Of a stretch of 64,000 bases of DNA, positions 2,539 to 40,471 are shown in pieces (the first letter of the stretch is position 1; every line of letters starts with the position of its first letter). Under the pieces are notes generated by a model. That model was given only the letters and a program-made list of their open reading frames with translations, ran no database searches and was not told the origin of the DNA. The DNA is from Orobanche coerulescens (taxonomy: Eukaryota; Streptophyta; Magnoliopsida; Lamiales; Orobanchaceae), in NCBI GenBank assembly GCA_033398695.1, contig CM065802.1, forward strand, positions 81,082,096 to 81,146,095. Reading direction: 5' to 3'. The position numbers were made by a program, and so were the translations under genes.

Positions 2539-3053
2539 TAGCGCACGCTAATAATCACGATTAGCGCACGCTATCGTGCAGGTTTAGCGCACGCTACGGA
2601 CATAACTTAGCGTACGCTAGTGAAGAACAGCTCAGAAGGAATCTACGTGTGGACCAGGCCACTTTCGGCGCACGTTCTGATAAGTCAACGGATGTTTGTA
2701 ATGTAGTACTAGCGCACGCTAAACCCTAAAGGTTAGCGCACGCTAATGATATATCGGACAAAAAGGAATCTTATCCTCGTCAGCACTTTCGGCGTGTGGA
2801 CCGATCTTGAGCATATAGACAAACGAGTCAATCTGCGTATAGCGCACGCTAAGGTTAAGGACTTGCGACGCTAGACAATATTTTACGTGCGTTAATACAT
2901 GGGCATTACGTCGCAAGCTAGTTTACGAAGCAAAACGATCGCCTCGGGATCGCGATAGCGCACGCTAACAAAGGACAGTTAGCGCACGCTAAGCTTGTAA
3001 CGTACGTTAATTAAAGATGTTAGCGTACGTTAATAATGTACAGTATATATATA
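2539..3053 (+). promoter_or_regulatory. Palindrome array and TATA box, element A module 1
   Basis: Copies of a 12-bp near-palindrome start at 2539, 2562, 2585, 2608, 2710, 2734, 2840, 2956, 2980, 2998 and 3021. Most are TAGCGCACGCTA; perfect palindromes are TAGCGTACGCTA (2608) and TAACGTACGTTA (2998). Decayed copies continue the register near 2863, 2883 and 2906. The first four are exactly 23 bp apart with unrelated 11-bp spacers. The TATA run starts at 3044, again 23 bp after the last palindrome. A U3 promoter/enhancer role is inferred from position. Confidence 0.72.
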
Positions 3054-3772
3054 AGTGCAGTTGGTCATTATTCGTCATTTCCGTCCATTTCTTCATCTGA
3101 ACCGATAGAGAGAGGTCTTAGAGAGAAGTTGAGGTTCCAAACACTTGAGTTGATCGTCCTTAACAACATTGGAGTTTGGAAACGGATTCAACCTTGGGAT
3201 TCAATCCATTCCTTCAAAGAGGTAATTACTCTTCACTTTGGGATTTCATTTTGGATTGTATATGATGTTCTTGAGTTGATGATCGTCATGTTTATGAGTT
3301 GATGAGTATGGTTATGAGATGGATTACTGAGTTATGTTGATGATATTGTTGATATGCGGATATTGATATGATTCGTGTGGTTTGGAATGGTGTTGTTCTT
3401 CTTCAAGAGATATGTTGGTTAATATCTCCCTTCATTTCGGGTTTTAAATGTTGTTGTTATTGTTTACTTCGTATGATGATGAACATACAAGTGATTATGA
3501 TTCTTGGTGTATATGATATGATTAAGAAGACTATATGTTGAAATGTTAGTGGAAATAAGATTTGGACACTTGTTTGGAAAGTAATGTGTATAAGGTTCGA
3601 CTTTGGAAAATCACCACCGATTCTTGAAAACTCCAAAAATTCTTAAACATAACAGTATAATAGATCATCGAGTTAGCTTTCTAATGGTTCAAACGGTGAG
3701 TTAATCGGAGTCCGGATGAGTGAGTTATGCTCAAAATGGCAAAAACTATACTGTTTGTATTCTGGGAACAGG

Positions 3773-3828
3773 TAGCGCACGCTATTGATGACGTTAGCAT
3801 ACGCTAACATGCCTGGGCGTATAAAAAC
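3773..3828 (+). promoter_or_regulatory. Second palindrome pair and TATA box in element A LTR
   Basis: TAGCGCACGCTA at 3773 and TAGCATACGCTA at 3795 lie upstream of TATAAAAA at 3820. A leader of about 190 bases follows, to a second donor-like GAAG|GTAATT. The LTR therefore appears to hold two tandem promoter modules of the same design. Confidence 0.6.
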
Positions 3829-4967
3829 ATAAAGCAGTCGGGAATTTCATTTCCCAACCCATCCTACACGATCCCCTTTCGTCCCAAATCACCCAAACTC
3901 AGTTTTTAACCCCTAAACCTCAGCTTTTGAGTTGGTTTATCAAGTGATAACATCTAGGAAAGCTTGGAACAAGGATTATAACATCATTATTGATTCTTTC
4001 GCCGGATTGAAGGTAATTGGCTTGAATTCTAATATTTTGGGATGTTTGAGATTCTTGATATATTTTGGTGGTTTAGTTCGTATCGATGGCTAGAATCATG
4101 TAATGTTGAAGGATATATATGTTTGTGATTATGTTCTTCGTGTTCTTGATGTGGTTGGTGTTTGTTGATTGATGATTCGAATATACCTTTGAATTCCGCC
4201 TTCAAGGTGTTTGATTGAAGTTTTGAAAGAGAAATTGATTGGAATATTTTGGTTAAGTTTGTATACTCGCCTTATCGAATCGATATATGGGCTTTGTGGA
4301 ATCATGGGAATGAATTCGTAATTGTTTGAGTTAGATTGTTCGGACTTGTGTTTAATCGAGATATTTTGGAATCGTTGGGTTTGTGGATTAGTTATATCGA
4401 TTGTTGATTGTTATCTAATGTGTGTTAAATCGATTATTGTAATAGTTTGATATTATGGCTGACCCCGTCGTGGGATTTCTTTTTAGGTTCTTGGAGTATC
4501 GAGCTTCTAGCGGTCGTGAAGAGATGAACTTCCCGGAGGATACTGGCAAGGGCATGTATTTGTGTTTTGAGTTTCTGATCAGTTGCTGTATTCCGCTGCT
4601 AGAGTATTTTAATTGTTTGTCTTTATCTGCTGCGTGAGTATTTTTAAATGGCCTTTTTGGTATCCGGTAACTTAGGTTACTTTGGCAATCATTTTCTAAA
4701 TCTATTATGTCGGTACGTGTAAGCGATAACTTAACGTATGTTTTTAAACTGTTGAGTTTTGGCATTTTGGGCCTTGTGGTTTCAAATGAGTTTTTACGAC
4801 GGTTTGATCAACGAGTTTTATAAATCTTCGAATTTTTTTAATAGATAATACCGTCGTTAGCCTCTTGGGCGTTTGTAAATGTTTGCGAAAATTTCCTTCA
4901 GCCTTGTGGGTTCCATCTCGGGGCCCACGGCGCTGTAATATTCCCGGTTGGATCTGGGGGTGTTACA

Positions 4968-9007: not shown

Positions 9008-9215
9008 TGTAATATCCGGGGGTAATTTTTTTTTCGTGTTACTGTTGAGTTGTACGTATTCATTTGGAATTGTACAAGTGTTGTTGTTTGGACCGATACA
9101 ATGTATATTGTATTAGAATATTTCGGGATCGAAATATTTATTACTGGTCGACGGTTTGGTTTCGTCGTTTGGTTGTTGTTTGGCGAGTTTGGAATTTTGG
9201 CTAAGTTTATAGCCA

Positions 9216-9386
9216 TAGCGTACGCTACCTATGTAGCATTACGTACGCTAATTTGTTGCGATTACGTACGTTACGCCCTGAGGTTACGTACGTAATGCGT
9301 GGTAGGTGGTGGGAACCTTCCTCGTGGTCAACTTTCGGGGCAAGGGTATCTTTGGGGTATCATTTATATATATATATATATATATT
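9216..9386 (+). promoter_or_regulatory. Palindrome array and TA-rich promoter of element B LTR
   Basis: TAGCGTACGCTA (9216), TTACGTACGCTA (9239), TTACGTACGTTA (9262) and TTACGTACGTAA (9284) start 23, 23 and 22 bp apart. The first and last are perfect palindromes. A (TA)n run from about 9366 may serve as TATA element. Same design as in A, C, D and G. Confidence 0.65.
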
Positions 9387-9469
9387 AATATTATCACCTC
9401 CCTCACGTTACCTACCTTGTGATTCCTACCTCACCTTATTCCCTTATATATTATATGTATGTGATTCCC

Positions 9470-10075
9470 TTTTTTCCCCCACCTTTTTCTCTCTCTCGTC
9501 CCTTCCATCTCTCCTCCCTCTCTCATTTTTTTTTCTTTCTTCTTCCTGTTACCATCTCTCTCTCTCGTCCTCTCTCTCTTCTCTCCATCTCTCTCATTTT
9601 CCGGCGAGGTGGAGCTGAAGGATGGCAGCCGGCTCTTTCCGGCGACGGACTAGAGTTGACAACCGGAGTTTGATGACATCTCCGGCGACGACCAGAGCTC
9701 GGCGGCGGCCGATCGGAACTTCCGGATCGGAAGGCACTGCAAATCCGGTCGAGCTGTTCCGGCATTTTTTTTTATTCTGGCGAGTCGGAGCTCAGGCGCC
9801 GGTTCTTCATGGTTTTCGGCCATGGATGCGGTTCCATTGATTCCGGCGACCGGAGGTGGTTTTTGTCTAGAACGGACGGCGGAATGGAGGCTTGACATCC
9901 TTCCGGCGAGGAGTTGCAGGCGGAGATGGTGAAAACCGGCCATGGACGGAAATGGGCTGGAGTTGGACGAAGTCCGGCGGGTCAGTTTTTCCGGCGGCCG
10001 AGTTCCAACAGGAGAGTTGTTTTCTGACCGGATTCCGGCGAAGGTCACCCGACCGATCGACTTTTCCGGGTAAGT
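9470..10075 (+). repeat. CT-rich tract and TCCGGCGA-rich leader in element B LTR
   Basis: A pyrimidine stretch (TCTCTC) at about 9485-9600 resembles the Y-patch seen near plant transcription starts. It is followed by about nine scattered TCCGGCGA-like words to 10045. The segment is far more GC-rich than its surroundings and ends in a consensus donor GTAAGT at 10070. It is probably the transcribed leader. No convincing protein is encoded. Confidence 0.55.
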
Positions 10076-10076
10076 C

Positions 10077-10145
10077 TTTGTGTTGTGTGTTGTGTGTTGT
10101 GTGTTGTGTGTTGTGTGTAATGTATAAGGCCTGTGTGTGTACAGG

Positions 10146-10178
<33 letters not shown>

Positions 10179-10420
10179 AATGTATGTACTGTTATATATA
10201 TATATGTGTTTGGTGTGTATGGTTCGTGTGTGTTGTTATATATATATATAGTGTGTAGGTATATATATATATAGTACAGTGGCATGTATATATATATATA
10301 TATAATGTGTGTGTGTGTGCAGTGAGTATATATATATATTTATATATATATATATAGATATTGTGAGTTGCATATATATATATATGTGATGTATGTATAT
10401 TATATATATGTGTGTGTATA
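10077..10420 (+). repeat. Microsatellite cluster in element B LTR
   Basis: A 7-bp GTGTTGT tandem (about five copies), then (GT)n and several (TA)n runs interleaved with short unique words. Confidence 0.9.
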
Positions 10421-12686
10421 CGGATAAATACGAGTATAATATGTGTTCGTGTTGGAATCGGAATTATCTATTGTGTTGTTTTCGGTCGATATCGTGTTAT
10501 CGAATGAATTGTATTTCATTCAAGGTTGTTCGAGTGCTTGTGATTGTCAGAGGACGCGTTGATTGATTCGTGGTAGGACGTTGATCGTGGAAGGACTTTC
10601 TCGCCTTCGGTTTGAGGCAAGTTTTATACTTGTACTGGTCAATGAGATTAATGTTATCATGTATGTGTATGAATGTGTGTATCATTTCAAGACTTGGTCT
10701 CTTTATGATTTTGTTGATATCAGGGGATTGTTTGATACGATACCCTTCGGCAAATTATGCCAAATATTATTGTTGTTCGTAAATGGCCGATTTAAGGCAT
10801 TGAGATACTTGTTGGTAATATATTTGTCGATAGCCGGTTCGCGGTATCGACATATCGATTGTTATTGTTGATTGATGTTCCTTTGAGATATTGTTGTTGA
10901 TAGCCGGTTCGTGGCATCGACGTATCGATTGTTGTTATTGATTGATGTCCCATCAAGATATTTTTTGTGAATCGTCGTCATTGATATCAGTGTTTTTCTA
11001 TTGATGTCGTTTTGGCCGATTGAAGGCATTGACGTATTCGATTATCATCTTCGTTATCGGTAACCGATTAAAGGTGCCGAGACATCCGTTGTATAATTGT
11101 TATTGGTTAACCGTTCTGAAGGTTATCGATATATTGAATTGGGATTATTAAAGATAATTCCCATCCGTTGTCAAAAAGATAATTCCCATCCGTTGTATAA
11201 TTGTTATCGATTGGCCGTTCTACGGTAATCGAAGTATTGAATTGGGACTGTCGAGGATAGTTCCCATCCGTTAAATTATTATTGTCGTGTTGACCGATTC
11301 AAGGCGGCACACTATTATTCTTGTGAACTCGGTAATTTTGTGATCGTTGAAGGTTGAGGATTTTCCCGAACTGTTGTGTTGTGATCGTTGCTCGTGTTAA
11401 TCGGTCATTAGGGATTTTGATCCCAGGATGGTTGTTTCGAATATTGTTGGTCGTGTCAATCTTTCATTATTCGTGTGTCATCGTTCACTTGGCGAGTCGT
11501 ATGATTTGTATTGGATGTGTTATCCTTTGAGTTTCGTTGTCATGTTGTATCGTGACATATCCGGAATCATATCTGCGTTCCGATTGGTTATTGTGTAGGA
11601 TTTTTAGCCAGGCACATATATAGTCATTGGTGGATATTATTCCGCACTGGACTGTGCACACGAGACGTAATTTCGTGAGGCTAATTAGGTACATTGTCCC
11701 ACGTATATTCTGGATTCCATATACGGGGCGGACATGTGCACGGACACATTTCCGGATCGGGCGTACTGTGATGTCCATCTTTGAGCCGTACAACTTTGAT
11801 CGTCCATAGTATTGGATGAGTTCGACGTTTTGTGACTGAGCGTTCATACGCCTGAGGGGTATGTTCGACAGTCATGTTTGTTTCTTTGAGATCTGTATTG
11901 TGATGATTTACAGCTTGGTCATTCGGCTTCGTGCCATCGTGATATTTTGGCAGCTTCGGCTGAGGGCTTTCAGGCCATTGTGATGTAACGGTATTTCCGT
12001 TTGAGCCTTCGGGCATTGTGATTCTTATTTATTTCAGCGTTGGTTTGGTTTACCTTCGGGTAATGTATTGTTGTGTTCTATATTGACGATTCGCCGTTGG
12101 GCACTTATGTTCTAACCTATTGAGCAGGCATTGATCGTATGCCATGGGCATAGTATTCCACGAATGCTCGATTCTTACTTTGGTTTGTGAGCATCTCGTA
12201 CTACCATTGTTGTACTGTTTATTCTGCCTTTGGATGCATATCATGTTGTGCATGTATTTGATATTCATTATTCTGGATGACTGACCCCGTGGGGGCGGAA
12301 CATGTTTTCATGTTTTAGATGCTTGCGAGGAGAGAGTTGAGACACAGGGGCATGACGATGGCGACGAGACATTCGAGCGATACTAGTCCGAGATATTTTG
12401 GTGTTCACGTCGGTCAGACAGTTTGGAGTACTCCAATTTTGTTCAGTCGTTGTCGTTTTGTATTATCCGAGCAAGGCTCGTGTATGTTGTTGTATTTTAT
12501 TTTGGCCATGTAGGCCCATCCTTGTCGTTGAAATTCCATATCGGAATAGTATGTCGGACGTCATAGTAGGGTCTGTGATTTCCTATTTTGGACAGGTTGT
12601 TGTATTTTAGTCGTGTTCGCCTGGTGGATCACCTGGTGTGGGGTCCACGGCACTGTAATAACCCAATGGGATTTGGGGGTGTTACA

Positions 12687-13533: not shown

Positions 13534-13785
13534 TAGCGCACGCTAAGAATGTAGCTTAACGCGCGCTATCGGCTACAACCAGCGCACGCTACGAATGTAG
13601 GATTTGCGTGCGCTAGGCAATCAATTATTGAGCTAGGCGGCTAGCACATGCGCCAGCCGGGACATGGGTCTGGATAAGATTCCCGCGGACGAACCTGGAC
13701 AATTTTATAGTCAACTCTTATTAGCGCGCGCTAAGGATGTATAATAGCGTGCGCTAATCAGCTATTGTGCATATACTTTATATAA
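13534..13785 (+). promoter_or_regulatory. Palindrome array and TATA box, element C
   Basis: Twelve-bp units start at 13534, 13557, 13580 and 13604 (23, 23, 24 bp apart), then at 13722 (TAGCGCGCGCTA, perfect palindrome) and 13745. TATATAA follows at 13779. Element D inserted at the edge of the 13722 unit in the 3' LTR copy. Confidence 0.68.
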
Positions 13786-17427: not shown

Positions 17428-17432
17428 GAAGA

Positions 17433-17880: not shown

Positions 17881-17900
17881 TTATTGATCCTCCGAATTAA

Positions 17901-23343: not shown

Positions 23344-24524
23344 TAGATCAAGTCTGTTGCCCAGTAGTGTACTGTCCTACACGTTTAACGCACGCTAAGT
23401 TATGTAGATTAACGTGCGCTATCGGGCATGAGTTAACGTACGCTACGTTTGGTACGTAACGTACGTTAGGTCATCAGGCGAGTTAGTCGGCTGATTAGTG
23501 AAGTACTGACCGTGCATAGTTAGCGTACGCTAGGCTTCGTTGTTTGCGTGCGCTAACGAGCAGACTTAACGCACGCTACGTAGAATACTTAGCGTATGCT
23601 AAGCAGTTCAGGCAGATTGCGTTTTATGAACTTTCGGCCATAAATTGGATTGTTAGACATTCGTACGACGTGAGATAAATTCTATATTATTTCTTTTGTT
23701 AAGGTTCAAGCTTGTTACGTGATTGATCGAAGGGGCGACTTTCGAGTGTTTCATTTTCGTGGAAGTATTGTTCTTGTATTCAAATCGAGGCAAGTACCTT
23801 ATTTGTTTTACGTATTGATGTTATACATATTGTCGTGCATATATGTCGTTGTTGTATGTCCACCTCGTGTTGGTCCGGCGGGATTATCGGGAGATCTATG
23901 CTAGCGTGCGCTGGATCATCGGACGGGTTTTTCCACCACGAGTTGGTCTGACGGGATCATCGTGGGTTCTAGGCAGTGAACGCTGGATCTTCGGAATTAC
24001 CATGTGTATGTTAAGATATCATGTTGTGATTATCAGTTGTGTATGTTATTTATGAGTTTCTCGTAGGAGAAGACTCGTTGGTATTTTGTCATTTACGTTA
24101 TTATTGTTCTTCGTGAGATGTTGAATAATATGTTGTGGTACTTGTACTAGCATCGTTGTGCTAAACCCTTAGGGGGTGAACATTTTTTTATGTTCAGGAT
24201 CCAGGAGAGCGGGGAAACAACCACTGAAGATGCATGACGACGAGGGTGCAGAGTGATGTTCCGGTCGAGTTTATTATCTGTTGTTGGTAATTTAATAAGT
24301 ACTCGAGTATGTCGTAATTTGTGATGTTTGGATTTCAGTGATGTATTAATATTCTCCATTTGTACATTTGTATTTTCGGTATTAAACCAGAACTGTCGTA
24401 TTTTATTTCAAGTGATTCCATAAGTTGGTATCTGTCATTATCGTATCATTTATTCAGCCTTGTAAATTCTTATGTAAAGGATTTACGGTGCTGTAATATT
24501 CCTGAATATATCGGGGGTGTTACA
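23344..24524 (+). repeat. Element C 5' LTR, right part (begins with E target duplication TAGAT)
   Basis: Continues C's 5' LTR after E; matches 38866-39340 of the 3' LTR. Contains a second palindrome array, a donor-like CGAG|GCAAGT (GC at 23790), an acceptor-like TGTTCAG (AG at 24196-24197) preceded by CCCTTAGGGGG, and the common LTR end CTGTAATATTCC...GGGGGTGTTACA. Confidence 0.9.
23386..23601 (+). promoter_or_regulatory. Second phased palindrome array, element C LTR
   Basis: Units start at 23386, 23410, 23434 and 23457, then at 23521, 23544, 23567 and 23590. The second set is exactly 23 bp apart. Variants include TAACGCACGCTA, TAACGTACGTTA (perfect), TAGCGTACGCTA (perfect) and TTGCGTGCGCTA. 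The 11-bp spacers are unrelated. No clear TATA box follows. Confidence 0.7.
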
Positions 24525-24541: not shown

Positions 24542-24714
24542 TAAGATTATGGATATCTTGGCCATTGGGTTAAAATTGGGGTCATATATGTCTTTTGAGG
24601 TAACCGGCCGCGAATAACATCACTGTACTGCCTACTTCTTCGTGCGGGCGGTGGTTGTAAGTTCCTAAACTCTATCTCGTCATTTACATGTGATATTTCT
24701 TTGTACTTGAGCAT

Positions 24715-26493
24715 TTGAACGATATTGTTTCCTGTATATTGAGTATTTATGCTTACAATATATTGAGAGGCGGACGTGGACGTGGTCGCGGTCGCGGACG
24801 CAGACGAAGGAATGCTGAAAGGGAAGCGTCGCCTTCTAATCAAGCCAGTCATAGCTCATGTGAGCCCCAAAGATCTATCAATAACGAACCGGAACCTACT
24901 GTACCAGAAATCCTTCGTCAGGTGGTGAACCAGATGACTCAGTTCGCTCAGGTCGTGGACCGAATGCAGGTGGCGGTGGGATTACAGCAGGGAGATAGGC
25001 AGCAAGGGATCCCAGATATGGGAAATCGAGGTGACCGATGGTTGCAAGAGGTGGCGAAGATGCAACCACCTAAATTCGACGGTATTTCTGAGACTCCCAC
25101 CTGGGACCATTGGTTGAAGGAATTGGAGAAAATTTTTGCCGGGATTAAGCGCCTGGGCAATGGGAGAGCCTCTATCGCTCAATACTTTCTGATAGGGGAA
25201 GCGTCCGAATGGTGGGAAGCTATCCGGCCTGTAGACCATGATGCTGATTGGACAGAGTTTAAATTGATGATGGAAGCTCAGTACTGCCCTCGTCCTGTGA
25301 GGGAAGCCAAGGTTCGGGAGTTTTTCTCCGCTCAGCCTTCAGATGTGCCAGTATCTCAGGCAATTAAGTCATTTAACCAGCAACTGGCATTTGTTCGACA
25401 TCTGGTCAGAACAGATGCAGAAATGATGATCCATTTTGATATGAGGATGAAACCAGAAATCCAGAGCTACATGTCCGGTTTTGAATGTACCACTCTCCGC
25501 CAATACCAGGATAAAGCATTGGCGTACAAAATCAAGGAAGCAGCAATGGAGAAGTTTACAGAGTCCAAGAAGCAGAAAGTCTCTGGTACTTTTACAGAGC
25601 ACAAGATCAGCGGGCCCCGCAAGGCCCAATCATCTTTTCATTCTTTCAAGACACCTCCGCACCCATATAGGAGCGGAAATAACTTCGGAGCAGCATCAAC
25701 CATGACAGATGTCACCAGGAAATGCTTTAACTGTGCCTAGACAGGACACTATCGACGGAATTGCCCCCTACCTGCCGTGACTTGTTTTGATTGTGGTCGA
25801 GAGGGACATTGTGCGGTGTTCTGTGAAGAGGATGCAAAGTCTTTTAGAGCCCGTACACCACAGCCAGTCCAGAAGGAAGCTAGTATCCAACAGACGCAGC
25901 AAAGTGTACAGATGCCTCAAAATTTTGGCCGCGGACGAGGCAGAGGACAGTGGGACCAAAAGGGTACATCGAGTGTCGGATCTGTTCCCCCACGTCTGTA
26001 CGAGATGAGAAGAACAGATGATCAGGATGCTGCTGTCGCATCAGGTACTGTTCAGATCCTTTCCCAGCTAGTTAGCGTTTTATTCGATACAGGAGCTATG
26101 CATTCATTTATATCCTTGCCTTGTGTAAATCGTTTGAATATTTCTGGTTTTCATAATTGTGAATCTTATGTTGTTGGTATACCGAGTGGGGAGAGGATTG
26201 TTGGAAACTTAGAAACTAGAGATTTCCCTGTATCACTTGGAGGCAGAGAGTGGCTCTCAAATCTGATTGTGATAGAAATGCAAGGAGACGACCTGATACT
26301 CGGAGACGATTGGATTAATCGATATGGAGCTATTGTAAACTACCGAAGGAGGAATATCTCGCTGATCGCTGACAATGGTTCCAAAATATTGTTTGAAGGA
26401 TGGAAACCAGGAAGCTCAGGAAAGCTGATCAAGGCGATGAAAGCTGTCAAATTGTTGAAACAGGATCAGATCTTGGATCTTGCTATGCAATGA
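24715..26493 (+). pseudogene. Element C gag and protease (degraded)
   Basis: The first 341 codons encode Gag: an Arg/Gly-rich N-terminus (about residues 18-33), then the retrotransposon gag capsid domain (about 105-260, with PPKFDG, WDHWL, EWWEAIRP and REAKVREFF), and the start of a CCHC knuckle. TAG at 25738-25740 interrupts the first knuckle, whose second half (TGHYRRNC) follows in frame. A second knuckle CFDCGREGHCAVFC starts at 25780. The same frame reaches the aspartic protease, with the active-site triplet Asp-Thr-Gly encoded from 26086, and a further 135 codons to a stop at 26491. A frameshift near 26465-26490 separates it from RT, whereas relatives normally have one continuous frame. 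The ORF start lacks the usual MPRRG-type beginning, so the true start may be lost. Confidence 0.92.
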
Positions 26494-28480
26494 AGAAAGA
26501 AGATGAAATTGTGGAACTTTCATCCATTCCTGTTGTGAACGAACTTCCAGATATTTTTCCTGACGAGTTACCTGGACTACCTCCACGACGGGATGTAGAA
26601 TTCACCATTGAGCTGGAACCCGGAGCTACACCAATTTCTAAGGTGCCGTATCGTATGGCACCTACCGAGATGTATGAACTGAAAAAGCAGCTGGAGGAGT
26701 TACTGGACAAAGGCTATATACAGCCAAGCATTTCGCCTTGGGGAGCACCAGTTCTTTTTGTCCAGAAGAAGGGTGGATCGCTTTGACTGTGTATTGACTA
26801 TCAAGAGCTGAACAAGATGACGATTAAGAACAAGTATCCGTTACCACAGATTGATGATTTGTTTGACCAGTTGCAAGGAGCAACAGTATTTTCTAAAATT
26901 GATCTGAGATCAGGATATCATCAGCTGAGGATTAAGGAATATGATATTCCGAAATCAGCGTTCAGAACTCGCTACGGACACTATGAATTTGTAGTGATAC
27001 TGTTTGGTCTCACTAACGCACCTGCTGTATTCATGCAATTGATGAACCGAGTGTTCATCGAATTTTTGGATAAATTTGTGGTGGTGTTCATTGATAACAT
27101 TCTAGTTTATTCCAAGAGCCCGGAAGAACATGCGCAGCATTTGCGGATTGTATTAGAACTTTTGAGGAACGAGCAATTGTACGCCAAACTTTCTAAGTGT
27201 GAATTCTGTCTAAAGGAGGTAATGTTCCTCGGCCACGTCGTATCAGCTGAAGGAGTCCGAGTAGATCCTTAGAAGATCGAAGCAGTTATAGATTGGAAAC
27301 CTCCTAAGAACGTAAAAAAAGTCCAGAGTTTCTTAGGACTTGCTGGATATTACCGTTGATTCGTGGAAGGGTTTTCTAAAATTTCCCGCCCACTTACTCG
27401 ACTCCTGCAGAAAACACAAAAGTTTGAGTTGAACGAGCTGTGCTAGAACAGCTTTGATGAATTGAAGAGGAGATTGACGACAACACCGATTTTAACACTT
27501 CCATAGGGAACTGGAGGATTCATAGTTTACAGTGATGCTTCAAACCAAGGACTCGGATGCGTATTGATGCAGAATGAAAAGGTGATCGCTTATGCGTCAC
27601 GCCAGTTGAAACCTTATGAAGTGAATTACCCAACGCATGATTTGGAGCTAGCAGCAGTAGTTTTTTCTTTGAAAACTGAGACATTACCCGCGGACTCACC
27701 GCCGATCTTTACGGATCACAAAAGTCTCAAATACATTTTCAGTCAGAAAGAGTTGAACATGCGACAAAGATGATGGTTAGAGCTGATTAAGGATTACGAC
27801 TTGGAAATTTTGTATCATCCAGGCAAAGCGAATGTAGTGGCAGATGCACTTAGCCGCAAGCCTATTTCTATCCAGATGCTGGAGACTCTGACCTCCCAAC
27901 TCAGCATTCAACGAGAGATGATTCAAGAAGGAATTGAAGTGTGGTTACAAAGAGTCCAAAGACAACTGTGCGTGATGGAAATAACTTCATCATTAACCGA
28001 AGAGATCAAATCTAAGCAGGCAAATGATCCTTTAATGATTCGATTACATGATGAAGTAATCAAAGGGAAGGCCCCCGGATTCGTAATTCATGATGATGGA
28101 GTTTAAAGATTTCATAACCGACTCTGCGTTCCTGATGTCGATGTTCTGAAATAGACGATTATGAAGGAAGCTCACAGTTCGCCCTATTCTATCCACCCGG
28201 GCACCAGTAAGATGTATAAGGACTTGAAGCAGAATTTCTGGTGGGGCAATGTGAAGAAAGATGTAGCGAACTATGTTTCGAAATGCTTGACTTGTTAGCA
28301 GGTTAAGATCGAGCATCAACGACCTGCCGGAATGTTGAAGCCGCTCCCGATTCCTGAATGGAAGTGGGAGGACATATCAATGGACTTTATCACTAGTATG
28401 CCGAGAACCAAGACAGGAATGAACATGATTTGGGTGATAGTTGATCGTTTAACCAAATCAGCTCATTTTCTAGGCATTAA
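26482..28480 (+). pseudogene. Element C reverse transcriptase, RNase H and integrase N-terminal half (degraded)
   Basis: One frame, with nine premature stops (26784, 27270, 27357, 27444, 27504, 27771, 28104, 28152, 28296), reads through the RT palm ([26 protein letters not shown]), an active-site box FIDN where FIDD is expected, the RNase H segment ([23 protein letters not shown]) with LADALSRK-like VADALSRK, and the integrase zinc region (two His, then CLTC). It ends just after the first catalytic Asp region ([12 protein letters not shown]). At least five stops fit C-to-T change in CGA or CAG codons, as expected from decay of methylated cytosines. The second Asp of the integrase DDE triad is missing because of a deletion at about 28480. 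Confidence 0.93.
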
Positions 28481-28486
28481 GGACAC

Positions 28487-29293
28487 GTGGGGACCGAATT
28501 GAACTTCAGTACAGCTTATCACCCACAGACTGACGGACAATCCGAGAGGACCATTCAAATGGTGGAAGATATGCTGAGGGCTTGTGCCTTAGATTGGTCA
28601 ACTGATTGGGAAGTTCATCTACCGTTGATTGAATTTACCTACAACAATAGTTGGCATGCTTCCATTAAGATGGCACCGTTTGAGGCATTATACGGGAGGA
28701 GATACAGATCGCCCCTATGTTGGGATGATTCATCAGACTTGATCGGAATAGAACCAGAGTTGATTGTACAGACGCGAGAGAAGATAGCCTTGATTCGTGA
28801 AAGGTTGTTGACCGCCCAAAGTCGACAGAAATCTTACGCAGACGTACGCCGTCGCCCATTGGAGTTCAGTACTGGAGACCACGTACTTTTAAAAGTTTCT
28901 CCTACTCGGGGAATCTTTCGTTTTGGAAGGAAGGGAAAACTGAGTCCGAGATATATCGGACCATTCGAGATCCTTGACAGAGTTGGAGAGTTGGCATACA
29001 GATTGGCATTGCCGCCGTCGTTGAGCCATGTTCATAACATGTTCCACGTATCCCAGTTATGGAGACATATACCGGATCCTAGTCATGTCATTGATTTCGC
29101 CCAGATCGAAATCGCTCAGGATGGAACATTCGAAGAAAGACCAATCAAGATACTCGAGAGTCGAGTTAAGCAGTTGAGAAACAAACCAATCGTTTTGGTC
29201 AAAGTTCAGTGGTCACGCCACGGGGCGGAAGAATCCACTTGGGAAACGGAAGATAGCATGAAGTCCAGATATCCAGAGTTATTTTCGTCTTGA
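28487..29293 (+). pseudogene. Element C integrase C-terminal part with chromodomain (degraded)
   Basis: 268 codons beginning at [16 protein letters not shown], the segment carrying the third catalytic residue (Glu in QSERT). The GPF/Y-type region (YIGPFEIL) and a C-terminal chromodomain-like segment ([15 protein letters not shown] to the end) follow. That terminal module marks the chromovirus (Tekay/Del) lineage and directs integration toward marked chromatin in relatives. About 50 residues between [10 protein letters not shown] and GTELN are deleted relative to the family, so this integrase is dead. The frame differs from the upstream pol frame. Confidence 0.9.
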
Positions 29294-29328: not shown

Positions 29329-29671
29329 TGTAATATCCGGATTTATTACTGTGTATTTCATCTGTATTTGAACCCTGTATTATTCGGAATTGTGATCTCG
29401 ATAATTGGAGTATGATATTTCTTATATTTGTATCCTTGTACATAAGTATAACATCATGCAAATTTCGCATGCAAACTCGTGATAGCGCAAGCTAAGAATG
29501 TAGCTTAACGCGCGCCATCGGCTACAACTAGCGCACGCTACGAATGTAGGATTTGCGTGCGCTAGGCAATCAATTATTGAGCTAGGAGGCTAGCACATGC
29601 GCCAACCGGGACATGGGTCCGGATAAGATTCCCGCGGACGAACCTGGACAATTTTATAGTCAACTCTTATT
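29329..29671 (+). repeat. Element C 3' LTR, left part, ending in D target duplication TTATT
   Basis: Matches 13380-13721 almost base for base, including the first palindrome set with a few changes. TTATT (29667-29671) is the left duplication of element D. Confidence 0.92.
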
Positions 29672-32600
29672 TGTAATATCCGCAATTTTGAATTTCAGTA
29701 ATTTTCTTTTTTCGGCGGAAGTCCGTTTTGATGACTCTCTCATGACCGTTTCGTCATTCCGAGAATGATTAATTCTGCACTTTTTGTCATTCGAGTTCGT
29801 TTCGGTATCGTTTTGTTGAGTTCCGAGCTTTTTAGCGACTTTTCCGCACTTGAGCTCGATTCTTGCGAATCTCGTCCGAAACTGTTGTTTCGAGTTTCTC
29901 GTAAGTTCATTTAATGTTATTATTCATGTTGCGAGCTTTGGTTCGGTGTTTCGATCACGTATCGTGATTTCCGGGCGTTTTGGGCCATTTTTGTAATTTC
30001 CCAAAGTTTGGGGTAATTACTTCCGTCGTCGAATTCCGACACTTCGGGTGATCAGAATCGGGTGTTCTCTTAGCGCTTGGATTCGTATTTGCGAGCACTT
30101 CGTAACCGTATCTTCGGTTTTTACTCAGGTTCGGGTTTCGGGGTCGTCCGGGCCGTCGGAATGGCCACGGCCGAGTCACGGCTGGAGCAAGGCCTGGCCT
30201 GGCCGTGTTACGGACGTAAGGTGCCGGTTACGGCCGTAATGTGTGCCAGTTACGGCCGTAAGGCGTGATCGGGTACGGCCGTACGGGCGTTGGGCATCTT
30301 CCGGACGAAAGCCGGTTACGGCCGTAATGTGTGCCAGTTACGGCCGTAAGTGTCCGACAGGTGCTAGGCAGATTTTTGACGAATGCCGGTTACGGCCGTA
30401 AGGCTTGCCGAATACGGCCGTATGGGCCGAGTTATGGCCGTAAGGCACTGCCGGTTACGGCCGTAAGTGTCCGGCAGTGACCGGCTATATAAGGCCTGGG
30501 CAACCCGTTTTTACTCATTTCTTCACTTTTCTCGCGGCTATCGGACGGGTGCGACGGGAAATAGGGTTCTTGGTCGATTCTACTCAATTCCAAGACGTTT
30601 TGGAAGATCCTTGTCAATTATATCATCATCCAATCCTTGTTCTTCGTCGGATCGAGGTAATTCTTCCGTAGAACCCTAGTTATGTAATTTTGGGGGTTTC
30701 TTCGTGATTCTTCGATTTAATCCATGGTGGATGAATTATTATGGTATTATTGTTGTCTTGGCCATGATCTTCGGATTTTGTAACTCATATATCGATTTTA
30801 TCACCCGGGACTTGATTTCCGATTTCTTCGAAGGAACCCTCAGATCCTTGTTGTTTTTCCGGTTGATTCGGATTCCGTTTAACGTTATTTATCCGTGGTG
30901 ATGTTATTTTCGTAGCGATCGTGAGGTTGTCGAAGTCTTGGTCGTTTTTGGAGGTTCGAAGGCTACCCGACCGTATCCGTTTGTTGTTTCCCGTTGCTCG
31001 TGGTATCGAGGCAAGTATCTTGCCCATACATTTCGTGTTTCGTAGACGTAATAATTGGTAATTGATTATATGTGGAATTTTAATGTTTCAATGAACTTTC
31101 AAAAAGGATCGGTATATTTTTATAAAGGTTTTCCTTCGAAGATAACTCATAGGCTTTATGAATAAATGTGTTTTCTGGTTAAGTATTTCAGTGTTGTGTG
31201 ATGGAAGATATTGAACATATTATAGTGAATTTAGTAGGCCACAATTATTTGCCGAGGATTGTGTATTGAGATGTGTAATTATACGGTGAATATGTGACGT
31301 GTGATATTAGCTGTTACTCCTTCGTAAGGAGGTTGAGACAATTGGTGTTGTTTGGCATTGGTACTTGTTTGTTGTGGTGTGACATAAATTGTGAGTATAT
31401 GTCAGTTAAAGTGGCCATTCTAGCGAAGTACCTAGCATTTGTATGCATATTCTAGAATTAGAATTATGGGTTCCAGTGGAGTTTTGGATTTTATGTGTAT
31501 GTTAACCTAGGGACGGTATGACGGGACCTCTAGTGATACGTATTGCAGTTAGTGTGCGTATCACAAACTGTGGTTAACCACCCAGGGATGTCCGACGGGG
31601 CTCTGCAGGGTACGGAGGCCGTGAGTCTCGTACCAACGGTTAACTTTGAAATGTTTTGTTGGAGAATTGTGATTTTTGGCGCATATTTCGTCTGATTAGA
31701 ATGGCAGTCCAAATGGTATCGTACTTGGCTGGAATGGCATCGATAAATGTGTTGTGTGTGATTTGTCCCTTGACTGTGATAATATGGTAAGGGTACGTGA
31801 GTCCTGTGGTTGCTCTGTGTATTGTAGCTCTGTGGTGTGTTGAGTTCGACCGTATGGTCGAGTTGCAAAGTTGTGCTCTCTGTTGTCGTTCTGTGAGACC
31901 GTTGTCTTGGTAATGTTGGACACGATGTAGTTTATGCCGGGTTATTCTTGTGAGTATGTGATGTGAATAAGTTGATTGACGGACCCCTGTGCTTGTGGTT
32001 GGAATGTTACGATTGGGTCGTGGACCCCGTATTTTGTTATCGGAATCGTATTTTGAAATAAATGATTTTTGGGCTGTGTCCCTAAGTGTTTCGAAAGGCT
32101 TGAAAATTCTTAAACTCCAAATGCTTTCAAAAACTCCCGAGATCGTAAAATGTCTTGTAAGATGTAAAATGGTTTTATTCCTATCTTTCATAATTCAAAC
32201 TGTTTTGAGCAAGTGAATTATCTCGGGAAGTATATTCACGATTTCTATGTTCTTGGAGTATGATATGTATGGCTTGTCTTTGTATTTATACTTGCACTAG
32301 CAAAACAGTGGAGTTTTGCTAATCCCCGAGTATTCGGGGGGTGGATGTCTATTTTGCGTCCAGGTATTTGCAGGTTGCTGGGGAGCAATTCACAGGATCG
32401 TTACGAAGGATGGTGGAAGACGACGATACTAATCATATGAAGACCGGTGTTGAGTATTTCGGCGATGTCTTGTTGTTTGTCCTTCCATTGTGTCTATTAT
32501 TCCCATTTTGCGGTATTGTTGATTTATGTTAACCCCTGCGTGGGTATGAGCTACGACAAAGAGTAATGTATGGAAGATGTGTATGTTGTGGTAAAAGACC

Positions 32601-32736
32601 AAATCGGTCTAATGGTTCGTTATTTAGCCATATCAGCATGTATAATGTTAATGTGTTTTCTGTATTTAGCCTGGTAGATCCTCACGGAGAGGGTCTGCGG
32701 CGCTGTAATATTCCCGAATGGTTTGGGGGTGTTACA
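29672..32736 (+). repeat. Element D 5' LTR (about 3.07 kb)
   Basis: Starts TGTAATATCCGC and ends TGTTACA. Holds a TTACGGCCGTAA array with TATA box, donor-like CGAG|GTAATT (GT at 30657), donor-like CGAG|GCAAGT inside a GGCAAG-TAT-CTTGCC hairpin (31011), and a hairpin CCCCCGA-GTAT-TCGGGGG type box before an acceptor-like GTCCAG (AG at 32362-32363). Confidence 0.92.
30208..30492 (+). promoter_or_regulatory. TTACGGCCGTAA palindrome array and TATA box, element D
   Basis: Ten units start at 30208, 30228, 30250, 30273, 30316, 30338, 30390, 30412, 30432 and 30455. Steps are 20-23 bp or about double that. Most are perfect TTACGGCCGTAA; variants GTACGGCCGTAC and ATACGGCCGTAT keep perfect symmetry, meaning both arms changed together. 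TATATAA at 30486 and a leader follow. The same array is repeated in the 3' LTR from about 35485. Confidence 0.72.
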
Positions 32737-34950: not shown

Positions 34951-37900
34951 TGTAATATCCGCAATTTCGAATTTCGGTAATTTTCTTTTTTTCGGCGGAA
35001 GTCCGTTTTGACAACTCTCTCATGACCGTTTCGTCATTCCGAGAATGATTAATTCTGCAATTTTTGTCATCCGAGTTCGTTTCGGTATCGTTTTGTTGAG
35101 TTCCGAGCTTTTTAGCGACTTTTCCGCACTTGAGCTCGATTCTTGCGAATCTCGTCCGAAACTGTTGTTTCGAGCTCTTAAGTTCATTTAATGTTATTAT
35201 TCATGTTGCGAGCTTTGGTTCGGTGTTTCGATCACGTATCGTGATTTCCGGGCGTTTTGAGCCATTTTTGTAATTTCCCAAAGTTTGGGGTAATTACTTC
35301 CGTCGTCGAATTCCGACACTTCGGGTGATCGGAATCGGATGTTCTCTTAGTGCTTGGATTCGTCTTTGCGATCACTTCGTAACCGTATCTCCGGTTTTTA
35401 CTCAGGTTCGGGTTTTGGGGTCGTCCGGGCCGTCGGAATGGCCACGGCCGAGTCACGGCCGGAGCAGGGCCTGGCCTGGCCGAGTTACGGCCGTAAGGTG
35501 CCGGTTACGGCCGTAATGTGTGCCAGTTACGGCCGTAAGGCGTGATCGGGTACGGCCGTACGGGCGCTGGGCATCTTCCGGACGAAGGCCGGTTACGGCC
35601 GTAATGTGTGCCAGTTACGGCCGTAAGTGTCCGACAGGTGCTGGGCAGATTTTTGACGAATGCCGGTTACGGCCGTAAGGCTTGCCGAGTACGGCCGTAT
35701 GGGCCGAGTTACGGCCGTAAGGCACTGCCGGTTACGGCCGTAAGTGTCCGGCAGTGACCGGCTATATAAGGCCTGGGCAGCCCGTTTTTACTCATTTCTT
35801 CACTTTTCTCGCGGCTATCGGACGGGTGCGATGGGAAATAGGGTTCTTGGTTGATTCTACTAAATTCCAAGATGTTTTGGAAGATCCTTGTCAATTATAT
35901 CATCATCCAATCCTTGTTCTTCGTCGGATCGAGGTAATTCTTCCGTAGAACCCTAGTTATGTAATTTTGGGGGTTTCTTCGTGATTCTTCGATTTAATCC
36001 GTAGTGGATGAATTATTATGGTATTCTTGTTGTCTTGGCCATGATCTTCGGATTTTGTAACTCATATATCGATATTATCACCCGGGACTTGATTTCCGAT
36101 TTCTTCGAAGGAACCCTCGGATCCTTGTTGTTTTTTCGGTTGATTCGGATTCCGTTTAACGTTATTTATCCGTGGTGATGTTATTTTCGTAGCGATCGTG
36201 AGGTTGTCGAAGTCTTGGTTGTTTTTGGAGGTTCGAAGGCTACCCGACCGTATCCGTTTGTTGTTTCCCGTTGCTCGTGGTATCGAGGCAAGTATCTTGC
36301 CCATACATTTCGTGTTTCGTAGACGTAATAATTGGTAATTGATTATATGTGGAATTTTAATGTTTCAATGAACTTTCAAAAATGATCGGTATATTTTTAT
36401 AAAGGTTTTCCTTCGAAGATAACTCATAGGCTTTATGAATAAATGTGTTTTCTAGTTAAGTATTTCAGTGTTGTGTGATGGAAGATATTGAACATATTAT
36501 AGTGAATTTAGTAGGCCACAATTATTTGCCGAGGATTGTGTATTGAGATGTGTAATTATACGGTGAATATGTGACGTGTGATATTAGCTGTTACTCCTTC
36601 GTAAGGAGGTTGAGACACTTGGTGTTGTTTGGCATTGGTACTTGTTTGTTGTGGTGTGACATAAATTGTGAGTATATGTCAGTTAAAGTGGCCATTCTAG
36701 CGAAGTACCTAGCATTTGTATGCATATTCTAGTATTCGAATTATGGCTTCCCGTGGCGTTGTGGATGATATGTGTATGTTCACCTAGGGACGGTCTGACG
36801 GGACCTCTAGGGATACGTATTGCCGTGAGTGTGCGTATCACTTAACCGTGGTTAACCACCCGGGGATGTCCGACGGGCTCTGCGGGTACGGATGCCGTGA
36901 GTCTCGTACCAACGGTTAACTTTGAAATGTTTTGTAGGAGAATTGTGATTTTTGGCGCATATTTTCGTCTCGATTAGAATGGCACCAAATGGTATCGTAC
37001 TTACCGGAATGGCATCGATAAATGTGTTGTGTGTGATTTGTCCCTTGACTATGATAATTTGGTAAGTACGTGAGTCCTGTGGTTGCTCGTGTATTGTAGC
37101 TCGTGGTGTGTTGAGTTCGACCGTATGGTCGAGCTGCAAAGTTGTGCTCTGTTGTCGCTCGTGAGACCGTTGTCTTGGTAATGTTGGACACGTTGTAGTT
37201 TATGCCGGGTTATTCTTGTGAGTATGTGATGTGAATAAGTTGATTCACGGACCCCTGTGCTTGTGGTTGGAATGTTACGATTGGGTCGTGGACCCCGTAT
37301 TTTGTTATCGGAATCGTATTTTGAAATAAATGATTTTTGGGCTGTGTCCCTAAGTGTTTCGAAAGGCTTGAAAATTCTTAAACTCCAAATGCTTTCAAAA
37401 ACTCCCGAGATCGTAAAATGTCTTGTAAGATGTAAAATGGTTTTATTCCTATCTTTCATAATTCAAACTGTTTTGATCAAGTGAATTATCTCGGGAAGTA
37501 TATTCACGATTTCTATGTTCTTGGAGTATGATATGTATGGCTTGTCTTTGTATTTATACTTGCACTAGCAAAACAGTGGAGTTTTGCTAACCCCCGAGTA
37601 TTCGGGGGGTGGATGTCTATTTTGCGTCCAGGTATTTGCAGGTTGCTGGGGAGCAATTCACAGGATCGTTACGAAGAATGGTGGAAGACGACGATACTAA
37701 TCATATGAAGACCGGTGTTGAGTATTTCGGCGATGTCTTGTTGTTTGTCCTTCCATTGTGTCTATTATTCCCATTTTGCGGGATTGTTAATTTATGTTAA
37801 CCCCTGCGTGGGTATGAGCTACGACAAAGATTAATGTATGGAAGATGTGTATGTTGTGGTAAAAGACCAAATCGGTCTAATGGTTCGTTATTTAGCCATA

Positions 37901-38004
37901 TCGGCATGTATAGTGTTAATGTGTTTTCTGTATTTATCCTGGTAGATCCTCACGGAGAGGGTCTGCGGCGCTGTAATATTCCCGAATGGTTTGGGGGTGT
38001 TACA
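34951..38004 (+). repeat. Element D 3' LTR (about 3.05 kb)
   Basis: Near-identical to 29672-32736, with a cluster of small indels around 36740-37140. Followed by the TTATT duplication at 38005. Confidence 0.92.
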
Positions 38005-39340
38005 TTATTAGCGCGCTCTAAGGATGTATGATAGCGTGCGCTAATCAGCTATTGTGCATAAACTTTATATAAGGGACATCACTCCATTTCTTCTCATTTC
38101 CTTCGAGTAACCTTCGTACTTGACGGTCCAGAGAGCATTTTATCCTCCTTAAACACACTTAAAACACATCTACTTGATCATTGGAGATTGGATATTACTT
38201 GTGATTGATCATTGAAGTGGAGTAACACCTTGGAGTGGCATACAACCAACCGGAGTTAGATTCTACCCGTTTGGTTCAGTGATTTCATCATATTAAGGTA
38301 TGTTAATTCTATCTCCAGCTTTAGATTCGGATTCTAAAGAATAAGATGATCATACTAGCAAGATATTGAGTTCCTTGGGTGAATTATTCAACAAACATCA
38401 CGTTTAGAAGATTGGAGTGTTTATGCTTATGATATTGTCGTTGGAACCTCGTAGTTGGAATCTTAGTACGTCAAATTATGAGAGGAACATTCTGAAGTTG
38501 ATTATCCGTATGATTTATGTTGTTATATTGATCATGAACTTGGAGGTGATATCACTTTTGGTTATAAGGACTTAAGAAAGAATCATCTTAGATTGCATCC
38601 TTTCTTATAAGCTGAAATTGTTAGCTTATCTCCATGGTTTAATCGGGATGTAATGATGATATTGAAATCTAGTGCGTCGACCTTAAGAACACCAAACTTC
38701 GCATGATAATTGTAATCAAGATGGATTACGGTGTTGTAATGATTATACATATCCCTGTATCTCAAAGTTGTTATCCGTAAGATCATTCACAAACCGTATG
38801 AGCATGATATGCATGGAGATGACATGTATTAACACTGAAGATTTCATGAGTTTCATCACCATTAGATCAAGTCTGCTGCCCAGTAGTGTACCGTCCTACA
38901 CGTTTAACGCACGATAAGTTATGTAGATTAACATGCGCTATCGGGCATGAGTTAACGTACGCTACGTTTGGTACGTAACGTACGTTAGGTCATCAGGCGA
39001 GTCAGTCGGCTGATCAGTGAAGTACTGACCGTACATAGTTAGCGTACGATAGGCTTCGTTGTTTGCGTGCGCTAATGAGCAGACTTAACGCACGCTACGT
39101 AGAATACCTAGCGTACGCTAAGCAATTCAGGCAGATTGCGTTTTATGAACTTTCGGCCGTAAATTGGATTGTTAGACATTCGTACGATGTGAGATAAATT
39201 CTATATTATTTCGTTTGTTAAGGTTCAAGCTTGTTACGTGATTGATCGAAGGGGCAACCTTCGAGTGTTTCGTTTTCGTGGAAGTATTGTTCTTGTCTTC
39301 AAATCGAGGCAAGTACCTTATTTTTTTTACGTATTGACGT
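38005..39340 (+). repeat. Element C 3' LTR, right part, cut by G
   Basis: Begins with the D duplication TTATT, continues at the level of 13722, passes the uninterrupted E site (about 38866), and repeats the second palindrome array (from 38905). It stops at GTATTGACGT where G begins; C's 5' LTR continues past this point at 23822. Confidence 0.9.
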
Positions 39341-40471
39341 TGTAATATCCGCAATTTCAATTTCTGGTAATATTTTATTTTTTGGCGGAAGTCCATCTTA
39401 GCGACTCTATTGTAACCGTCTCGTCATTCCGAGAATTATTAATTCTGCACTTTTTGTCATCCGAGTTTGTTTCAGTGTCGTTTTGTTGAGTTCCGTGTCC
39501 TTAATCGACTTTTTCACGTGTGAGATCGACTTTGTAAAGTCACCATTAATTCTTGGAAACTCCAAAAATTCTGAATCTTTGTACTATCATAGATCATCAA
39601 GTTAGATTTCCAATGGCTCAAACGGTGAGTTAATCGGAGTCTGGACGAAGGAGTTATGGTCGAAATAGCTAAGACTGCACCGTGTGCCTTTTTATGTTGG
39701 AGCGGGCTGTACTGCGGGCCGCGGCGCAAAGCTGATTTCTGAGCCCATACTGGCCGGTAGCGCATGCTAGTCCAGAAGGATAGCGCACGCTAGGCCGTGC
39801 CAGTATAAATATGACTGAGCAGTCATATTTCCACTCATTTTTGATTTGTTTTCTTTTCTGTCCGCGACTGGACGTTCGGAGAAGGCGAAGGCATGTTGTT
39901 AAAAAACGAATCTACGAAGTCCTAGAGCTTATATCATTGATGAATCATCCTATAACATCCTTTGATCGAGCGAATCAGGTCAGATTTTCTAGAAATCCTA
40001 GTTTTGGGGAATTTGGGTAATTTGTTTGATTTCGTCCGTTTAATCCGATTTAACTTAGTATTGTGATGGTTTGATGATTATTTAGATGTATTATATCATC
40101 TCCCTTGTTATTCCATGGTCGGATCATATAGATTCCTCGTTTTGGTTGTGTTCTTAATCGACACCTTGAAGGTGTCCGGTAGAATGTCATAGAGGGGTTT
40201 TCGGGCATTCTACGATTATTCTTCTTCGTATGATCGTTGATTTATTAATTGTTTGATGTTCGGGTCGAGTTTCTTGCAAGGAACCCATGTTGAACCTTTC
40301 CGTTTGTCGTCGTCTTCCTTTTCGTTTGCATCGAGCGTTTCAAAGCTTCCCGGTTGAGCCGTGTTCGTCGGAATACTTGCGTGCTGATTTTGAGGCAAGT
40401 ATCTTGTCCATACGTTTCATGTTTCATAGGCATAATTATCGATAAATGATTTTATGCAAAATTCAATGTTT
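39341..40471 (+). repeat. Element G 5' LTR, part 1
   Basis: Starts TGTAATATCCGC and shares GGCGGAAGTCC and TCATTCCGAGAAT boxes with D. Includes the promoter unit at 39758 and a donor-like TGAG|GCAAGT (GC at 40395). Joined to truncated copia DNA at 40472. Confidence 0.85.
39758..39811 (+). promoter_or_regulatory. Palindrome pair and TATA box, element G
   Basis: TAGCGCATGCTA (39758), TAGCGCACGCTA (39781) and TATAAATA (39804) start exactly 23 bp apart, placing the TATA box in the palindrome register, as in element A. Confidence 0.7.

Follow-up and report, generated by a model that had tools for sequence, protein, structure and literature searches.

What are short CpG-bearing palindromes doing, repeated at a near-constant 23 bp, inside the long terminal repeats (LTRs) of a plant's retrotransposons? 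The question is raised by 64 kb of Orobanche coerulescens DNA (GCA_033398695.1, contig CM065802.1, positions 81,082,096 to 81,146,095; the whole of this stretch is called the window), a nest of LTR retrotransposons in which a first-pass annotation, made from the letters alone, had pointed to such arrays upstream of TATA boxes in five gypsy families (here A, B, C, D and G). The phased arrays are real and far more widespread than the window, recurring throughout its own 3.65-Gb genome and in two Ty3/gypsy lineages. We consider it probable, though well short of certain, that they would serve as promoter-proximal binding arrays for a dimeric activator, itself probably encoded by the host.

The window contains 58 exact matches to the 12-bp consensus TWRCGNNCGYWA, where 500 dinucleotide shuffles average 0.62 and never exceed 4. 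Of the real matches, 28 pairs lie 20-24 bp apart, a spacing found in none of the 500 shuffles. A scan for 12-bp dyads that presupposes no word finds 30 same-word pairs at 20-24 bp, where 100 shuffles average 0.05 and never give more than 1. In a profile of 34 boxes from A, B, the left LTR of C, and G, the information lies almost wholly within the 12 bp, with flanks reaching at most 0.33 bit. Positions C4 (34/34), G5 (33/34), C8 (32/34) and G9 (34/34) are nearly invariant, and identity is 82% among boxes but 28% among spacers. Every coordinate at which the first-pass annotation had placed a box holds one, three of them (13580, 23590 and 39758) with one mismatch to the consensus, and the steps it gave as close to 23 bp in A, B, C and G measure 22-24 bp. 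Its term palindrome fits less well: the word recurs, but perfect symmetry over all 12 bp is reached by just 7 of the 34 boxes, whereas the left D array has 8 such boxes out of 10. A further family, F, on the minus strand (54635-54899 and 59802-60084), had been overlooked.

Across the genome, words were counted as exact matches, each with the same word read backwards as its control. TAGCGCACGCTA occurs 1,017,744 times (510,633 + 507,111) and its reversal 56 times (23 + 33). Counts are 148,354 against 4 for TAGCGCGCGCTA, 143,744 against 48 for TAGCGTACGCTA, 184,551 against 83 for TTACGGCCGTAA, 170,680 against 255 for TTACGTACGTAA, 242,758 (121,648 + 121,110) against 14,628 (7,444 + 7,184) for TTACGTACGTTA, 79,338 against 473 for TAACGTACGTTA and 101,126 against 26 for GTGCCGCGGCAC; a weaker class, ACACGGCCGTGT, which has other steps, reaches 7,426 against 210. 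Together these nine words occur 2,095,721 times and their reversed controls 15,783 times, nearly all of the latter due to TTACGTACGTTA. The negative-control palindrome TGACGTACGTCA, one symmetric change away from TTACGTACGTAA, is found 17 times genome-wide, and 77 times when reversed.

A genome sample of 25 stretches of 10 kb (L009-L028 and L030-L034; 250 kb), all on the 16 largest contigs, 20 at round-number positions and 5 at random ones, speaks to vocabulary and spacing. Among the 64 words of the form XYZ-CG-NN-CG-(reverse complement of XYZ), TAGCG occurs 102 times, TTACG 71, ACACG 9 and TAACG 4, with a median of 0. The commonest 12-mer in the first 20 stretches, simple repeats excluded, is TAGCGCACGCTA; each of the four that follow either belongs to this kind of word or overlaps one. 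The 236 sites matching TWRCGNNCGYWA are spread over 18 of the 25 stretches, and their pair distances peak at 23 bp (70 pairs), with 46 bp (27), 24 bp (26) and 69 bp (13) following; 100 of the 111 adjacent pairs no more than 40 bp apart are separated by 22-24 bp. Spacers at different loci are 25.8% identical, against 25.3% by composition, whereas those of the same array reach 32% and consecutive ones 43% (21 pairs), so the earlier statement that spacers are unrelated is right between loci but not wholly so within arrays. This gradient indicates that arrays partly grow by unit duplication, and that spacing outlasts spacer sequence. The three tests that had been proposed as able to overturn the observation were run on samples rather than on the whole genome: the 23-bp autocorrelation peak is present in the 250 kb, boxes are kept while spacers drift in both window and sample, and arrays lie closer to TATA boxes than random intervals do.

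The last of these can be put in numbers. Arrays are linked to TATA boxes: of the 46 arrays with at least three boxes, 32 have a TATA-like box no more than 75 bp away on one side, a proximity seen for 12.6% of 4,000 random intervals. This tally takes in 37 arrays in the 25 stretches (24 of which have such a box), 7 in the window and 2 in L029, an extra stretch picked for its arrays, and leaves out F (another word) and G (two boxes). A stricter TATA pattern within 150 bp is met at 13 of 24 arrays against 17.9%, and counted by edge, a TATA lies at 20-36 bp from 10 of 78 edges against 2.5%. The TATA offset is 23-25 bp in 9 of 18 matches of the TAGCG class and 45-47 bp in 3 of the 18, 22-24 or 31-32 bp in 6 of 7 of the TTACGG class, and 25-31 bp in 5 of 7 of the TWACGY class. 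In L029, 18 boxes stand mostly in blocks of four, with the TATA 24 bp past the last. For A and G, the claim that the TATA box (3044 and 39804) falls at the next 23-bp step is correct, each lying 23 bp past the last box; the distance is 81 bp in B, 31 bp in D and 34 bp in C. The wider claim that arrays stand upstream of a TATA box applies to A, B, D, G and the first C array. It fails for the boxes at 23386-23590, which had been taken as a separate upstream array: these lie about 850 bp downstream of the TATA at 13779 and belong to the same C LTR as the first array, split by a nested element.

How might such words be read? TWACGTACGTWA is the one class that was counted whole, and its forms TTACGTACGTAA, TTACGTACGTTA and TAACGTACGTTA (170,680, 242,758 and 79,338) compare with 173,098, 237,921 and 81,757 expected from independent arms, which agrees within 3% and leaves symmetric forms slightly short. 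Within the sample, TTACGG words have a symmetric outer base in 27 of 40 cases (27.0 expected) and the word centre is symmetric in 69 of 108 (70.1 expected), while GTGCCGCGGCAC is symmetric in 8 of 34, fewer than the 13.8 expected. When the TAG and TTA classes are pooled, 72 of 108 sites are symmetric against 38.9 expected; the classes seldom mix between arms, and both arms differ together from one class to the other (43 AG/AG, 25 TA/TA and just 3 AG/TA among the 108). Compensatory change between arms, as suggested by the D variants GTACGGCCGTAC and ATACGGCCGTAT, is thereby rejected genome-wide for TWACGTACGTWA and is unseen in the sample tests. Independence within a class combined with joint change between classes is what two separately read half-sites of a few factors would predict, and not what a selected hairpin would. 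Independent arm variation in the class counted genome-wide thus argues for half-sites that would be read one by one, and against hairpins.

In the mechanism that we propose, a dimeric, probably host-encoded, DNA-binding protein would occupy each 12-bp word, its two subunits each recognising one half-site (TWRCGY in the main classes) independently of the other. Neighbouring dimers would line up along the lattice of about 23 bp and the last of them would abut the TATA-bound initiation complex, which would place the TATA often one lattice step past the last box. Related factors that differ in specificity would read the word classes TAGCGYRCGCTA, TWACGTACGTWA, TTACGGCCGTAA and TTCTGGCCAGAA, as well as ACACGRYCGTGT and GTGCCGCGGCAC, the words of Athila or Athila-like elements; arrays would grow partly through duplication of 23-bp units. 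The words, their numbers, their spacing and their link to TATA boxes are seen directly in the sequence; binding, activation and the identity of the protein are what we infer here. The earlier notion of an operator-like array for a dimeric protein gains from word-confined information, kept spacing, TATA proximity and independent half-sites in the class counted genome-wide; compensatory arm changes within a class are not supported. The half-sites resemble TTRCGT, which we take to be a NAC-type site. A NAC-type binder was considered; no paper among those listed ties NAC proteins to such a 12-bp palindrome, and we name no protein. We speculate further, as an idea that is more likely wrong than right, that a promoter code exists in which a small family of dimeric factors polymerises on a 23-bp lattice ending at the TATA box, that chromovirus and Athila elements independently adopted different words, and that the roughly two million words mark which elements a given factor starts.

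Several observations weigh against binding by a dimeric activator, or narrow its reach. Seven of the 25 stretches lack any TWRCGNNCGYWA site. By the patterns used, 14 of the 46 arrays have no TATA within 75 bp, including all 6 GTGCCGCGGCAC arrays (in 3 of 5 tested, it lies 107-129 bp away), and at least 2 of the 32 matches are due to chance, at 16 bp from window array B and 52 bp from the second C array, on the side facing away from the LTR direction. That second C array is some 850 bp downstream of the TATA of its own LTR, and B's is 81 bp away. A CA/TG centre, rather than that of either perfect palindrome, is present in 77.7% of the 1,309,842 copies of TAGCGYRCGCTA (1,017,744, where independence would give about 654,900, or 50%). 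With this asymmetric centre, TAGCGYRCGCTA is not a simple homodimer palindrome, and a founder effect on the TAGCG word is a possible source of the asymmetry. Part of the 23-bp ladder is duplication history, given the 43% identity of consecutive spacers, and many arrays are copies of one another, so that array counts are not independent events. Finally, element context is established for the arrays of the window and L029 and partly for those of L009, L012, L025 and L027, and most sampled arrays fall outside that set.

Other explanations have to be set against the same evidence. One is a hairpin role of the kind put forward for the LTRs of maize Sireviruses, in which LTR transcripts would form stems from which small RNAs are made. 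The D and A arrays do fold beyond their shuffles (RNA folding z of -5.5 and -4.4, with no shuffle as good); the available text of two papers also describes Sirevirus palindrome regions as small-RNA hotspots (PMC5311732, PMC10760457). Yet any repeated palindrome folds well, so that such scores are expected under every model, and the arms of the class counted genome-wide are independent, with no excess of matching changes. Two copies of the commonest word would pair with two central mismatches, and most TATA-linked arrays would presumably fall outside a transcript from that promoter. We give hairpins little credence. A role as functionless remnants of 23-bp tandem duplication, amplified by successful elements, would account for the 43% identity of consecutive spacers, for the period of 22-23 that Tandem Repeats Finder reports at several arrays, and for the internal duplication of L029, at 72%. 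It sits badly with words that are kept while cross-locus spacers are at composition level, with a word common to LTRs that cannot be aligned around it, with spacing held at 22-24 bp and with TATA proximity, and strikes us as very improbable.

Two further possibilities also invoke a bound protein, one removing DNA methylation and the other silencing. The arrays could be sites for an element-encoded protein that removes DNA methylation, as VANC motifs are in VANDAL transposons, which was the analogy originally offered, together with the suggestion that the arrays may counter CG silencing. The likeness is that short motifs are repeated in non-coding element DNA and vary between related families, as do VANC targets in the available text of PMC5735166. 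The VANC motif given there, YAGTATTAY, is different and non-palindromic, however, and that text mentions no palindrome and no TATA link. Nor do the open reading frames (ORFs) surveyed in C and L029 offer a candidate gene. In the internal region of C, all coding-strand ORFs of at least 50 aa lie inside the gag-pol span and there is no antisense ORF of at least 150 aa; in L029, 8 of the 14 ORFs of at least 90 aa were searched, of which 5 gave gag-pol domains and 3 no match (two in the pol span, one antisense). An element-linked factor thus has no support so far from the ORFs of C and L029, and we regard this explanation as unlikely. Alternatively, a family of host proteins could bind the words and silence the elements, with changes of word as escapes. 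Related LTRs do carry different words, and turnover is concentrated in the arrays, but a site for a repressor should be lost, not retained as many as 18 times in one LTR and multiplied to some two million copies, and placement one step from the TATA suits activation better; we strongly doubt a repressor role. Activation by a dimeric factor remains the account that we favour.

Arrays of short sites in regulatory DNA have precedents. Plant LTR promoters such as those of Tnt1 and ONSEN carry stress-responsive repeated boxes, arrays of transcription-factor sites in U3; to our knowledge these have few copies per LTR and no such fixed lattice. Plasmid iterons, to which the arrays had earlier been likened, are short sites that recur regularly, about two helical turns apart, and serve a dimer-forming protein, whereas the setting here is a promoter, and no replicon or Rep gene was noticed. 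The repeated motif of Sireviruses (Ty1/copia) is, by analogy, the closest known kind, and a closer precedent than VANDAL: in the available text of Bousios et al. 2010 (PMC2829016), family-specific CpG-bearing palindromes occur in many copies in the upper half of the LTR, shortly upstream of the TATA, and in env-bearing elements also upstream of the env gene. That text calls the motif Sirevirus-specific among the Ty1/copia elements compared. According to the available text of PMC10760457, the cis-regulatory regions of various elements often consist of repeats in array, some of them palindromic, and the maize Sirevirus palindrome is also found in Helitrons; palindromic arrays outside Sireviruses are therefore not new as such.

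Some features are shared with the Sirevirus motif and others are not. The GGCC words of D type carry its CGG-CCG core, which is present in TTACGGCCGTAA and ACACGGCCGTGT and absent from the main words TAGCGYRCGCTA and TWACGTACGTWA. Set against a mark of at least eight copies per element, clustered upstream of a TATA, the picture is mixed: single LTRs have 12 (A), 10 (D) and 18 (L029) boxes, but 4 in B and 2 in G, and a TATA is near 32 of the 46 arrays. The host elements differ, being of Ty3/gypsy type: C and L029 have a gypsy-type gag, reverse transcriptase and SH3_Tf2-1, and the ACACG array of L009 is part of an ATHILA element. Both C and L029 also weakly match a chromodomain (PF00385) C-terminal on the integrase, at E 1.5e-4 (22.0 bits) and 6.8e-4 (19.9 bits) respectively, both below the curated cut-off of 25.1. 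Also different are the 23-bp lattice that often includes the TATA, and the words shared between LTRs that cannot be aligned around them. What we describe is thus a Sirevirus-like design in two Ty3/gypsy lineages of one genome, with a TATA-including lattice and a shared vocabulary. In the available portion of the open-licence literature, which mostly leaves out subscription journals, these arrays were not found in work on palindromes in gypsy, chromovirus, Sirevirus or Athila LTRs, nor was a 23-bp lattice with shared vocabulary found described (PMC12844716, PMC6911290, PMC11302176 and PMC11963269 included). A search for five of the 12-mers in print gave just papers on topics that are unrelated by title.

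The available literature has so far presented palindrome arrays in plant LTRs mainly as a feature of Sireviruses (copia), and it names no binder. Exact words, exact spacing and independent arm variation make the purpose of the palindromes directly testable, as protein binding against hairpins. If a host factor does bind them, they would form an enormous sink of sites, with a bearing on the host's control of its own genes as well as of the elements.

The second lineage comes from the genome sample. In L009, an element with an ACACG array carries both the ATHILA ORF family (PF03078, E 5.7e-27) and a gypsy pol with integrase core. Its array of ACACGRYCGTGT boxes (8574-8868, minus strand) lies between the integrase and the PF03078 ORF and is followed by CCTTTATAAAGGG, a TATA-like box. 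ACACGGCCGTGT forms arrays in an ATHILA element. The GTGCCGCGGCAC arrays, whose steps are often 21 bp, are probably in Athila-like elements: the boxes adjoin gag, aspartyl protease and PF20167 ORFs in L012, lie near an integrase in L025, and in L027 lie near gag and a primer-binding site (PBS) that we take to be Athila-type. The position of the L009 array is reminiscent of Sireviruses, for which the available text of PMC2829016 places motifs both in the LTR and ahead of the env gene. Arrays upstream of an env-like gene were not seen in C or L029; the L012 boxes at 2455-2637, before the PF20167 ORF, may be a second such case.

The first lineage is that of the window, whose array-bearing elements are Ty3/gypsy of what we class as chromovirus type; we presume them to be of the clade named Tekay. 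Their LTRs mostly begin with TGTAATATCC or similar and end with GGGTGTTACA, and where an internal region follows, the PBS is TGGTATC[AG]GAGC. Coding domains matched in Pfam were found, among these families, in C only. The features are as follows, in window coordinates.

2303..4967, plus strand: right LTR of A (TGTAATATCC ... GGGGTGTTACA); the left LTR ends at 332, with PBS TGGTATCGGAGC at 338
2539..3032, plus strand: A array 1, 12 boxes, mostly TAGCGCACGCTA, with steps of 18-24 bp within blocks
3044..3055, plus strand: A TATA box, 23 bp past the last box
3773..3827, plus strand: second promoter-like module of A, with boxes at 3773 and 3795 and TATAAAAA at 3820, 25 bp past the last box
9008..12686, plus strand: right LTR of B; the left LTR (4968-6928) is truncated at its 5' end
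9216..9295, plus strand: B array, 4 boxes, steps of 23, 23 and 22 bp; (TA)n from 9365, 81 bp past the last box
13534..13756, plus strand: C array 1, 6 boxes, one with a mismatch; TATA at 13779, 34 bp past the last box
23386..23601, plus strand: C array 2, 8 boxes, one with a mismatch; same LTR beyond the nested element, about 850 bp downstream of the TATA
24694..29293, plus strand: C gag-pol region, interrupted by stops, with gag, protease (RVP_2), RVT_1, RNase H, SH3_Tf2-1 and the sub-cut-off chromodomain match
29483..29564, plus strand: right LTR of C, first part of the array 1 copy, 4 boxes, two with a mismatch
29672..32736, plus strand: left LTR of D, with PBS at 32742
30208..30466, plus strand: left D array, 10 boxes of TTACGGCCGTAA type; TATA at 30486 (31 bp)
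35485..35743, plus strand: D right-LTR array, 10 boxes; TATA at 35763 (31 bp)
38009..39120, plus strand: right LTR of C, remainder of arrays 1 and 2, 10 boxes, four with a mismatch
39341..40471, plus strand: 5' part of the G LTR, the first 190 bp D/F-like (82%), then A-like at 39526-39676 (151 bp, 82%)
39758..39810, plus strand: G boxes 39758 and 39781 and TATA 39804, 23 bp past the last box
54635..54899, minus strand: F1 array, the word drifting between TTACGGCCGTAA and TTCTGGCCAGAA; TATATA 21 bp past the last box
59802..60084, minus strand: F2 array, the word drifting between TTACGGCCGTAA and TTCTGGCCAGAA; TATATA 23 bp past the last box
62543..62578, plus strand: box pair of element J, 24 bp apart, 800 bp downstream of the J PBS (61743)

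Comparison of these LTRs locates the turnover in the arrays. By BLAST, the D and F LTRs are about 85% alike over the whole part that precedes the array, and the alignment resumes shortly past the TATA; the array itself gives no match, yet GGCC-centred dyads are present in both. The 151-bp A-like stretch of G corresponds to the sequence just before the second module of A, where two boxes and a TATA mirror the layout of G. The J box pair is flanked by the PBS and gag; a nearby stretch matches the end of the A LTR at 74% identity, as if an old LTR fragment had been taken up.

Other details concern the arrays, their LTRs and the sampled DNA. At 175-737 of L029, boxes about 23 bp apart are mostly grouped in fours, the groups recurring every 130 bp or so, and two stretches are 72% alike. 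D has inserted into C array 1 right at a palindrome's first base, duplicating the 5 bp TTATT (13718-13722, 29671 and 38005); insertion targeting was considered from this position at the palindrome's edge, which is a single case. Inside the F LTRs, a tandem repeat of 34-36 bp differs between the two LTRs (52968-53255 and 58175-58414). CpG observed/expected in the 25 sampled stretches is 1.01 (TpG 1.04, CpA 1.07), that is, without CpG depletion, which is unusual for a transposon-rich plant genome.

No relative of the reverse transcriptase piece turned up among viral contigs, and gag had one weak match, from Rhododendron. Inside the element at 14587-23341, between two 2.85-kb LTRs (96% identical) in which no repeated palindrome word was detected, lies a LOG-like gene fragment (PF03641; 18355-18918, minus strand). 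For 18358-18918, all ten matches are proteins of Orobanche hederae, O. minor or O. gracilis, at 78-83% identity across 49-64% of the query, and the element seems to have captured a host gene. A copia-type element at 40472-52158, with SH3_retrovirus and an integrase core at 46422-47387, contains a direct repeat, some 4.7 kb long, which takes in an ORF with a zinc-knuckle-like motif and perhaps arose by unequal recombination.

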